DNA of 64,000 bases from an uncultured Pelagibacteraceae bacterium (GTDB lineage Bacteria; Pseudomonadota; Alphaproteobacteria; Pelagibacterales; Pelagibacteraceae): positions 138,714 through 202,713 of the forward strand of contig CACNVG010000001.1 in the NCBI GenBank assembly GCA_902623785.1, written 5' to 3'. Position numbers and translations under genes: made by a program. The notes beneath the pieces are model-generated. The model was not told the origin of the DNA and ran no database searches. It was given only the letters and a program-made list of their open reading frames with translations. Shown piece by piece: positions 49,012-54,619 of the stretch. Position 1 is the first letter of the stretch. Each line of letters begins with the position of its first letter.

Positions 49012-50028
49012 TTAAATCCAAGCGGGAATTGGAAGACCTTTTTCTTGTAAAAACTTCTTATTAAACAGCTTAGAGTTGTATTTATCTGATCTGTCACAAA
49101 GAATAGTAACAATTGTCTTACCCGGTCCTAATTTTTTACCAAGTCTAATAGCTCCAGCAATATTTACACCACAACTCGTTCCTAAACTTAAACCTTCGTT
49201 TTGAATAAGGTCATATAACACTGGCAAAGACTCTTTATCCTCTATTGAAAATGCTCCATCAATTTTTGCCTCAGCAAAATTAGCTGTAACTCGACTTGAT
49301 CCTATACCTTCAGTTATAGAATTACCTTCACCTTTCAATTCTCCATTTTCAATGTAGTTATAAAGGGATGATCCAGCAGGATCTGATAAATAAATCTTAA
49401 TATTTTTGTTTTTTTCTTTCAAAAAACTACTTACACCAGCAATAGTTCCACCTGTGCCTGATGAACAAACAAAACCATCAACCTTTCCATCAGTTTGCAT
49501 CCATATTTCTGGTCCTGTCGTCTCGTAATGTCCTTTGGAATTAGCGGTATTATCAAATTGATTAGCCCAAACCACTCCGTAATTGTTGCTACTCTTTAAT
49601 TCATCTGCAAGTCTACCCGCTACTTTTACATAATTGCCATCATCTTTGTATGGTTTAGGTGGGACTAACCTTAAATCAGCCCCCATGTTCTTTAACATAT
49701 CTTTTTTTTCCTGAGTTTGATTATCATTCATCACAATAATTGTCTTATACCCAATAGAATTTCCTATTAAACAAAGACCGATACCAGTATTCCCAGCTGT
49801 ACCTTCAACAATCGTTCCACCTTTTGAAATTAATTTTTTTTCTTGAGCATCTTTAATTAATGCTAAAGCGGCTCTATCCTTTACAGATCCACCCGGATTT
49901 AAGTATTCTGCTTTACCATATATATTGCATCCAGTTATTTCTGATGCTGCTCTTAATTTTACTAATGGTGTATTACCGATCCCTTCAATAAAATTGTTTT
50001 GAGCATTTTTCATATTAATTTTTATCAC
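49012..50028 (-). CDS. cysK: Cysteine synthase A
   Basis: [63 protein letters not shown]. Confidence 0.93.
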
Positions 50029-50596
50029 TTTCAGGTGTTATACCATAAGGTTTGAAATTCTCATCTGAGCTTGAAGTTTCACCAACATTTTTCGCTGGTA
50101 TTCCAACCATCACTGCGTTTTCTGGAACATCTTTAGTGACAACTGCGTTTGCACCAATTTTTGCATTTTTGCCGACAGTTACTGGCCCAAGTATTTGTGC
50201 ACCAGATCCAACTACAACATTATCTTTAAGTGTAGGATGTCTTTTAATATTTCTTTGTTCATTAGAATTTACGCTTGGTGAGATACCACCTAATGTTGCC
50301 ATATGATAAATAGTTACATTATCTCCAATTTCTGAAGTTTCACCAATCACAACTCCCATTCCATGGTCTATAAATAAATTTTTACCAATGTTAGCTCTTG
50401 GATGAATTTCTATTCCAGTTAAAAATCTTGAAAACTGAGAAATTATTCTTGCAACTAAATTAAATTTTGCGATTGCAAAAAAATTTGCAATTTTGTGGAA
50501 AAAAACAGCCTTAGCACCAGGATAAGTTAAGATAATACTTAGCTTTGATTTGGCAGCAGGATCTCTCTTTATAATAGACTCTAAAAATTCATTCAT
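50015..50596 (-). CDS. cysE: Serine O-acetyltransferase
   Basis: Hexapeptide-repeat acyltransferase, [43 protein letters not shown]; overlaps cysK. Confidence 0.95.
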
Positions 50597-50621: not shown

Positions 50622-50738
50622 CTAATTGCAACAACAACAAACACTTTCAGGTTTGCAATTACATTGCACATCCCCGTCGCAGGCACATGTCTCGTTAGTG
50701 CAGTTTGTGCAAATACATTTTGAATTGTCGCAAGCCAT
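50622..50738 (-). CDS. Cysteine-rich 38-aa peptide, metallothionein-like candidate
   Basis: Reverse strand ATG...TAG: MACDNSKCICTNCTNETCACDGDVQCNCKPESVCCCCN, 12 Cys/38 aa, CxCxxC, CxC, CxC and CCCC motifs; absent from ORF track because short. Confidence 0.8.
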   Translation of the reverse strand: MACDNSKCICTNCTNETCACDGDVQCNCKPESVCCCCN

Positions 50739-50788
50739 AATTAATATATAGAGTTAATAACTTAATAATCAACCCAAATTTTGTCGCT

Positions 50789-51481
50789 TTAAATTTGATT
50801 TAAAGTAAGGCCTTTTACGTTTGCAGGTACAGCCACATCCATCATTTTTGGATTAGCTAATTTTAAATTATTCATGATCTCTACATATTGATCTATTGAA
50901 TTTACTTGTAGTCTTGGATTGTTCTTAATTTCGTTTCCAATCGTAGAATTCTTTTTTCCATTATAATCATGCGCTGGAAAAACAACTGTTTTCTCTGGAA
51001 GTTTAAGTAATTTATTAAATAATGAATCGTATTGTTGTTTAGCATTTCCATTTTGAAAGTCAGTTCTTCCAGTTCCATTTATTAATAATGTATCTCCAGT
51101 AAAAACTCTATCTTCCATTAAAAAACTATAAGAACAATCTGTGTGTCCAGGTGTATATAAGACTTTTAATTCAATACCATCTAATTTAATTTTTTCATTT
51201 TCTTTCACTCTTAAATCAACAACTTCAGATTTAGAATTTTCACCCATTATTTTTGTACAACTAGTTCTTTTACTTAACTCATTTAATCCAGTTATATGAT
51301 CAGCATGAATGTGAGTGTCTATTACTTTAACTAATTTTAATTTTAATTTTTCCAAAAGTTTTATGTACTCCTCAGTATGTTCTATTACTGGATCAATGAT
51401 TAAAGCTTCACGACCCTCACCACTTGACAGTATGTACGTATAGGTTGAAGACTTAGTATCGAATAGTTGTTCAAAAATCAT
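50789..51481 (-). CDS. MBL-fold hydrolase, ETHE1/persulfide dioxygenase-like
   Basis: MIFEQLFDTKSSTYTYILSSGEGREALIIDPVIEHTEEYIKLL, DTHIHADHITG, TPGHTDCSYSFLM, VFTGDTLLINGTGRTDFQNG; start moved from 51520 to 51481. Confidence 0.88.
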   Translation of the reverse strand: MIFEQLFDTKSSTYTYILSSGEGREALIIDPVIEHTEEYIKLLEKLKLKLVKVIDTHIHADHITGLNELSKRTSCTKIMGENSKSEVVDLRVKENEKIKLDGIELKVLYTPGHTDCSYSFLMEDRVFTGDTLLINGTGRTDFQNGNAKQQYDSLFNKLLKLPEKTVVFPAHDYNGKKNSTIGNEIKNNPRLQVNSIDQYVEIMNNLKLANPKMMDVAVPANVKGLTLNQI

Positions 51482-51556
51482 ATTAATCATCATCTTATAA
51501 AAAATTGCATAGTAAATCAATCTTGCATATAATTTGTTTTTAAAAAGGAGATGTAA

Positions 51557-52219
51557 ATGACTCTAAAAATAAATAGTTTAGCGCCAGACTTTAAAGCTAA
51601 AACGACTATTGGTGATATTTCATTTCATGAATGGTTAGGTGATAGTTGGGGTGTATTATTTTCACATCCAAAAGACTTTACGCCTGTTTGCACAACAGAA
51701 TTAGGTTCTCTTGCAAAATTAAAACCTGAATTTGAAAAAAGAAATGTAAAAGTTATTGGCCTAAGTGTTGATCCGGTTTCAGATCACGTAAAGTGGTTAG
51801 AAGATATAAAAGATGTAACTGGAAAAAAACCAGACTATCCAATTATAGCTGATGAAGATCTTAAAATTGCAAAACTTTATAACATGTTAGAAGGAGATGC
51901 TGGAACTACTTCAATGGGTAGAACTGCAGTTGACAATCAAACAGTTAGAACAGTTTTTATCGTAAGACCTGACAAAAGAATTGGCTTATTCTTAACATAT
52001 CCAATGGCGACAGGAAGAAACTTTATGGAATTATTGAGATCAATTGACTCAATGCAGCTTACTGCAAAACATAAAGTTGCAACACCTGCAGATTGGAAAA
52101 AAGGTGAAGAGGTTATCATTGTTCCTGCTGTGAAGGATGATGAAGCTAAAAAATTGTTTCCTAAAGGTTGGAATGCAGTTAAACCTTATTTAAGAAAAGT
52201 ACCAGATCCATCAAAGTAG
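51557..52219 (+). CDS. Peroxiredoxin (1-Cys Prx6-like)
   Basis: LFSHPKDFTPVCTTELGSLAKL, GRNFMELLRSIDSMQL; SD aaggaga upstream. Confidence 0.93.
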   Translation: MTLKINSLAPDFKAKTTIGDISFHEWLGDSWGVLFSHPKDFTPVCTTELGSLAKLKPEFEKRNVKVIGLSVDPVSDHVKWLEDIKDVTGKKPDYPIIADEDLKIAKLYNMLEGDAGTTSMGRTAVDNQTVRTVFIVRPDKRIGLFLTYPMATGRNFMELLRSIDSMQLTAKHKVATPADWKKGEEVIIVPAVKDDEAKKLFPKGWNAVKPYLRKVPDPSK

Positions 52220-54112: not shown

Positions 54113-54619
54113 ATGTTTAAATCATTCTCATACATAATTTTATTATCATTTTTCATTTCCACAGCTCATGCTGATATGAATATGAAAATAGGTTCAAAAG
54201 GTAAACTTTCTGAAGTAGATAGAACTATCCAAGTTAAGATGTTTGATAACTATTATGAACCAAAGTCCTTTAATATTAAAAAAGGTGAAACGATAAAATT
54301 CGAAGTAGTTAATGTAGGCAACCTTGTACATGAATTTAATATTGCTAATGCAATGATGCATAAAAAACATCAGCCTGAAATGGAAAGAATGGTTGAGAAT
54401 GAAATTTTATTAGCAGATTCAATTGATAGAGAGAAGATGAAAAAAATGGCAAAAATGGATAAAGCAATGGGACACTCTCACAGCAATAGTGTTCTTTTAG
54501 CTCCAAATGAAAAAGGGGATTTAATTTGGAAGTTTGACAATGCAATGAATATTGAAATTGCTTGTAATGTGCCTGGCCATTATCAAATTGGAATGGTAGC
54601 TAAAATAGAGTTAGAATAA
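54113..54619 (+). CDS. Periplasmic cupredoxin-like copper protein
   Basis: Signal peptide; VNVGNLVHEFNI and CNVPGHYQIGM cupredoxin Cu ligands; Met/His-rich middle. Confidence 0.87.
   Translation: MFKSFSYIILLSFFISTAHADMNMKIGSKGKLSEVDRTIQVKMFDNYYEPKSFNIKKGETIKFEVVNVGNLVHEFNIANAMMHKKHQPEMERMVENEILLADSIDREKMKKMAKMDKAMGHSHSNSVLLAPNEKGDLIWKFDNAMNIEIACNVPGHYQIGMVAKIELE

Follow-up and report, generated by a model that had tools for sequence, protein, structure and literature searches.

A cysteine-rich, metallothionein-like peptide gene beside cysE-cysK in Pelagibacter, with relatives in marine viral contigs

Does a short open reading frame (ORF) in the spacer between an ETHE1-like gene and cysE encode a real protein and, if so, what would so cysteine-rich a peptide do there? 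The ORF lies in a 64,000-nucleotide stretch of DNA from an uncultured Pelagibacteraceae bacterium (the window). It was overlooked by annotation, and SAR11 is among the most abundant groups of ocean bacteria. The locus contains the following features.

50622..50738, reverse strand: cysteine-rich peptide gene (metallothionein-like), 38 aa, 12 Cys, supported by translation, orthologs and codon-level purifying selection
50745..50750, reverse strand: -10 box TATATA, at -12 to -7 from the ATG; TATAT at -12 to -8 in 86-94% of 65 distinct sequences
50767..50772, reverse strand: -35 box TTGATT, at -34 to -29 from the ATG, with a 16-nt spacer; TTG at -34 to -32 in 82-95% of 65 distinct sequences
50789..51490, reverse strand: ETHE1/Blh/GloB-like metallo-beta-lactamase-fold gene, directly upstream, persulfide-dioxygenase-like (PF00753; conserved neighbor)
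50015..50596, reverse strand: cysE, serine O-acetyltransferase (EpsC type), next downstream (NF041874 and TIGR01172 above cut-off; conserved neighbor)
49012..50028, reverse strand: cysK, cysteine synthase (NF007989 above cut-off; conserved neighbor)
51557..52219, forward strand: divergent peroxiredoxin gene, the conserved edge of the locus beyond the ETHE1-like gene (PF00578, PF10417; conserved neighbor)

Translation of window positions 50622-50738 on the reverse strand yields MACDNSKCICTNCTNETCACDGDVQCNCKPESVCCCCN, followed by a stop codon. Cysteine makes up 31.6% of this peptide, compared with a mean of 1.3% for the ATG-initiated ORFs of the window. This was by far the highest content of any ATG-initiated ORF in the window, the runner-up among those of at least 25 aa reaching 16%, and the binomial expectation for such cysteine richness over 228 window ORFs was approximately 1e-11. 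The gene is separated by 50 nt from the ETHE1-like gene and by 25 nt from cysE, all on the same strand.

A first homology search, run on 61 relatives, recovered both near and distant copies of the peptide. The peptide profile was matched (E<=0.01) by 82 of 399 Pelagibacter genomes, or about a fifth; this is a lower bound, as these genomes are mostly incomplete. One of the two weakest of the 82 matches (G025) is a true divergent copy at the same place with an extra cysteine stretch, while the other (G290) is partial and remains undecided. A scan of a species-genome collection returned 56 loci, every one from a record titled Pelagibacteraceae or Pelagibacterales and most from single-cell genomes. 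Across the wider order, matches were limited to the same genus and one sister-genus genome (G590), and no match was obtained in the further genomes sampled, 344 from the class and 348 from the phylum. Weak matches in G001, G011, G032, G035, G104, G142 and G504 were rejected on the basis of internal stops or partial cover. The G025 copy (L104), located upstream of cysE, is an enlarged, cysteine-richer variant of 44 aa, MTCNNKSCNCKNCDPKKCKCSSDGNCACNSCKCSPNSTNCCCNN, in which a cysteine stretch has been inserted.

The order ETHE1-like gene, peptide gene, cysE, cysK, on one strand, was found in all cellular homologs with enough flanking sequence, with the exception of contig L085, in which the ETHE1-like gene was absent beside the peptide locus. 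The product of the ETHE1-like gene contains THxHxDH and GRTDFQ motifs, which we take to fit a persulfide-dioxygenase-like protein; it matched the NCBIfam GloB and Blh models below their cut-offs, and the ETHE1 label is tentative. Two ETHE1-like types were distinguished in Pelagibacter (201 genomes): a cysE-linked type with at least 74% identity to that of the window, found in 68 genomes, and a second type with approximately 59-68% identity, found in 83 genomes and sited away from cysE where checked. The peptide was carried by 42 of the 68 genomes with the cysE-linked type and by none of the 83 with the other type, although these counts were made by hand and relatedness of the genomes inflates the association. 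In G016, G032, G035, G010, G013 and G018, the ETHE1-like gene and cysE lie 24-43 nt apart and the peptide is missing. The peptide is a clean presence/absence polymorphism at the ETHE1-cysE junction, and since many close relatives lack it at an intact junction, it is dispensable. The adjoining ORFs, whose translations were inspected without a targeted regulator search, included no recognizable ArsR/SmtB-type metal sensor and no recognizable metal exporter. A CopI-like cupredoxin (window positions 54113-54619, forward strand; below the NCBIfam cut-off) lies approximately 3.4 kb from the peptide gene and is retained near many, but not all, peptide-bearing loci.

Members of the SAR11 family are 36-44 residues long, mostly with 11-12 cysteines at fixed spacing, and have the core C3-x-N5-x2-C8-x-C10-x-N12-C13-x4-C18-x-C20-x5-C26-x-C28-x6-CCC(C). 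Selection was analyzed in 65 distinct nucleotide sequences, corresponding to 56 proteins. Cysteine columns 3, 8, 10, 13, 18, 20, 26 and 28 and the final CCC contained only 3 exceptions in 715 cells, and both TGT and TGC were used in every cysteine column. Asn5 and Asn12 were invariant and Pro30 nearly so, while His was absent from 61 of 65 members and aromatic residues (F/W/Y) from 52 of 65. Among close pairs, the Nei-Gojobori dN/dS was 0.24 overall, 0.007 in the cysteine columns and 0.37 elsewhere; the signal is one-sided, even though the pairs are non-independent. A minority type (L011, L012) has SC-x2 in place of x4, a shorter loop and one cysteine gained.

The ORF is a real gene under selection, restricted to its lineage and set in a fixed sulfur locus. 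The original prediction of a 38-aa, 12-Cys reverse-strand ORF, co-directional between an ETHE1-like MBL-fold gene and cysE-cysK, held exactly in translation, coordinates and strand, and the proposed co-location with cysteine synthesis and the ETHE1-like gene proved to be conserved across homologs. A terminal CCCC, also predicted, held only in part: the tail is CCC in about half of the family and the fourth cysteine is optional. Two outcomes had been named as refuting the gene, namely the lack of orthologs retaining start, frame and cysteine pattern, and a Ka/Ks near 1. The gene passed both tests: dozens of relatives retain these properties, and dN/dS lies well under 1.

No SD-like motif precedes the ATG in any of the 65 distinct sequences. 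Since a transcription start 6-7 nt past the -10 box would coincide with the ATG, the peptide mRNA is likely leaderless, an inference made from sequence alone and without expression data. Some genomes lacking the peptide have a similar TTAATAACTATATAG directly before cysE. The peptide appears as if slotted between promoter and cysE. An AT-rich near-palindrome (ttgattatttaaataaatcaa) is present in the short peptide-cysE spacer of several clades (e.g., L005, L025 and L029) and absent from the clade of the window.

Relatives of the peptide were also found in viral contigs. A scan of these contigs with the SAR11 profile detected three loci bearing MACENEKCKCENCTCDPCLCTEDKQCECAKE, a degenerate DNA pattern search detected 26 contigs with peptide relatives, and a profile scan detected 89 relatives, of which 80 were kept. 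The approximately 50 distinct phage peptides are shorter than the SAR11 form and follow, with small variations, the pattern C-x-N-x2-C-x-C-x-[ND]-C-T-C-[DN]-P-C-x-C-x5-C-x-C. All contain exactly 9 cysteines except for one longer, fusion-like ORF with 12. The phage peptides have no CCC tail and carry an extra cysteine at position 15, which is also present in a few SAR11 copies (L011, L012 and L096). Viral contigs with 9-Cys peptides were L134, L148, L153, L155, L156 and L170-L243. The phage ORF of L219 consists of a 9-Cys module followed by approximately 33 residues with three more cysteines, perhaps a small zinc-ribbon-like tail.

Alignment of the host and phage profiles by hhalign gave a probability of 97.6% over 31 ungapped columns, with Met1, Asn5 and Asn12 included. 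Profile scores among cysteine-rich peptides are inflated by composition, human MT2 reaching scores similar to those of the phage peptides, and HMM scores uncorrected for composition were considered unreliable; host-phage homology is therefore argued from register, Asn5/Asn12 and specificity, and not from score alone. In a blind search of 101 Pelagibacter genomes, the phage profile returned two matches, both at the known peptide locus. It had no match in 146 genomes of the class, a weak result because most host copies, including that of the window, were missed at E<=0.01. Host and phage peptides have the same Cys/Asn register, which may reflect common descent or convergence, there being no tree or transfer evidence. 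Viral contig L148 resembles the pelagiphages HTVC008M and Mosig (71.5% across 38% of the 8 kb used as query). Whole-genome scans of the isolate phages HTVC008M, Mosig, Melnitz-1 and C48C1 with the phage profile found no copy. A tblastn search of INPHARED phages with the window and phage peptides gave nothing useful, a weak negative, as the low-complexity filter may mask such peptides.

Pfam confirmed NifU, NifU_N (IscU) and Fe-S_biosyn (IscA) proteins adjoining the phage peptide. Of the 26 contigs in a first set of phage loci, 14 had a same-strand IscU, NifU or IscA gene within approximately 0.05-2.2 kb, as did 37 of the 74 loci in a second set, which overlaps the first. The arrangements differed, with Nfu approximately 0.1 kb downstream, IscU approximately 0.05 kb upstream or 0.6-1.4 kb downstream, or IscU-IscA 1-2 kb upstream. 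Taken from the iscU side, 24 of 79 phage iscU loci had the peptide within 4 kb, always on the same strand. Because marine viral contigs often carry iscU (436 relatives) and are related to one another, the Fe-S link is a strong lead and not proof. IscU and an Fe-S insertion gene (iscU, erpA) are reported from HMO-2011-type marine phage genomes (PMC9038755). A small cysteine-rich companion peptide was not found in the passages of that paper examined, and no PHROG was found for it. The phage relatives and their link to Fe-S assembly genes fell outside the original prediction, which was made from the window alone.

Neither the window peptide nor its relatives matched any entry in Pfam, NCBIfam, PHROGs or PDB sequences. 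The window peptide had no Pfam hit of any kind at E<=10, and PF02069 did not match four further SAR11 members or one phage peptide either. With 36-44 aa and mostly 11-12 Cys at fixed spacing, the SAR11 family satisfies the broad-sense metallothionein criterion of small size and approximately 20-33% Cys as CxC/CxxC/CC, and, given the dN/dS of 0.007 in the cysteine columns, also that of selective cysteine conservation. In SmtA-type bacterial metallothioneins, His residues are among the ligands and the fold is that of a GATA-like zinc finger (PMC10612145). Like the SmtA/BmtA/PmtA type (PF02069), the SAR11 peptide is small, cytosolic and cysteine-rich, and SmtA, which holds four Zn, has a CxCxxCxC stretch. 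In contrast to this type, the SAR11 peptides are shorter, end in a CCC tail and contain almost no His or aromatics, and they do not fulfill the SmtA-type criterion of His ligands with an aromatic/hydrophobic zinc-finger core. A hand-entered SmtA sequence scored 12.5 bits against the SAR11 family profile, under the median of shuffled cysteine-rich peptides. MymT, the mycobacterial Cu(I) metallothionein, is likewise a small, cysteine-rich, Cu-thiolate protein. Its length and cysteine pattern, compared without alignment, differ from those of the SAR11 peptide, and no family-database link between the two was found.

The domain clusters of animal metallothioneins are M4Cys11 and M3Cys9 (PMC10612145). 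The SAR11 peptide shares with these alpha (M4Cys11) and beta (M3Cys9) domains a chemistry of cysteines alone, in CxC/CxxC/CC arrangements and with neither His nor aromatics, and the cysteine counts of the SAR11 (11) and phage (9) forms equal those of the two domains. However, animal metallothioneins are two-domain proteins with no demonstrable shared descent, and the likeness is one of composition and cysteine count. By analogy, the SAR11 peptide may resemble animal domains in how it works, but not in membership. No description of a metallothionein-like peptide of SAR11 or marine phage was found in the open-access literature searched, which mostly excluded subscription papers. The predicted separation from SmtA-type families held, with no PF02069 match and with His and aromatics virtually absent; for MymT only an unaligned comparison agrees. 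The suggestion of a new class is met by the lack of any known-family match; the peptide reads as a new kind of metallothionein, with binding inferred.

We favor the reading that this real and selected gene encodes a small cytosolic all-thiolate metallothionein-type peptide, which we consider likely (probability approximately 0.68), with metal binding inferred and not shown. In this view, the promoter would drive a leaderless mRNA from or near the peptide ATG into cysE-cysK, and a single transcript would have the thiol supply and the thiolate peptide made together. The 11 invariant cysteines would wrap approximately four divalent ions (Zn, Cd) in one M4Cys11-like thiolate cluster or, as an alternative cargo of this host form, a larger number of Cu(I), while in phages the 9 cysteines would accommodate three ions in an M3Cys9-like manner. 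The peptide would buffer thiophilic metals (Zn/Cu/Cd), shielding metal-sensitive sulfur chemistry such as persulfides and Fe-S scaffolds, and phage-encoded IscU/NifU would receive the same protection from the phage copy during infection. A metal (Zn/Cu/Cd) or sulfane-sulfur sink had been judged plausible at the outset and is supported as an interpretation, although the ligand is not decided by sequence. If the favored reading is true, a metal-buffering peptide under a cysteine operon would bear on Zn, Cu, Cd and sulfur handling in streamlined cells. The relatives in phages suggest a small viral auxiliary gene tied to Fe-S assembly and missed by annotation for its length. A bolder reading, which is no more than possible, is an undescribed oceanic host-virus family of micro-metallothioneins: an 11-Cys, four-metal SAR11 form made with the cysteine biosynthesis genes, and a 9-Cys, three-metal phage accessory to Fe-S assembly that would take over or protect sulfur/metal traffic during infection.

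Since the conserved neighbors are sulfur genes, a thiol or sulfur role fits as well. The peptide could be a metal-free sink or carrier of sulfane sulfur or persulfide, taking up polysulfide sulfur for delivery to the ETHE1-like enzyme or into cysteine or Fe-S biosynthesis. Its fixed site between the ETHE1-like gene and cysE-cysK, its restriction to the cysE-linked ETHE1 type and the proximity of phage copies to iscU/iscA/nifU favor this alternative. However, one or two reactive cysteines are the norm in persulfide carriers, not 9-11 with strict CxC/CxxC spacing, and the strict spacing and CCC tail better suit the geometry of a metal cluster. Further, ETHE1-cysE loci without the peptide indicate that it is not needed for the pathway, and the co-occurrence with ETHE1 is mostly one physical linkage in related clades. 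We consider this explanation unlikely.

Equally improbable in our judgment is an Fe-S accessory, in which the peptide would carry Fe or Fe-S transiently, or act as a metal decoy that protects IscU, in phages with their own scaffold, and the host copy would serve the same pathway, made with cysteine as sulfur donor. The same-strand Fe-S genes at about half of the phage loci in both sets, in several arrangements, and the peptide-bearing fraction of phage iscU loci, with scaffolds confirmed by Pfam, support this proposal. Against it, many of the common viral iscU loci lack the peptide and half of the phage peptide loci have no such gene nearby, while the conserved host neighbors found were ETHE1, cysE, cysK and peroxiredoxin, not isc/suf, which were not specifically searched for.

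A regulatory leader peptide of cysE-cysK, that is, a Cys-codon-rich uORF sensing charged tRNA-Cys via ribosome stalling, would account for the many Cys codons, the separate promoter and the position just upstream of these genes. This very unlikely idea was rejected: non-Cys residues are also under purifying selection (dN/dS 0.37, with Asn5 and Asn12 fixed and Pro30 nearly so), the cysteine register is common to phage proteins without recognized downstream cys genes, and no conserved attenuator was seen by eye in the 25-40 nt before cysE. Finally, a chance ORF in the spacer, for which only the short length and missing annotation speak, is all but excluded, being contradicted by the orthologs, fixed locus, conserved promoter and cysteine-content statistics and refuted by codon-level selection.
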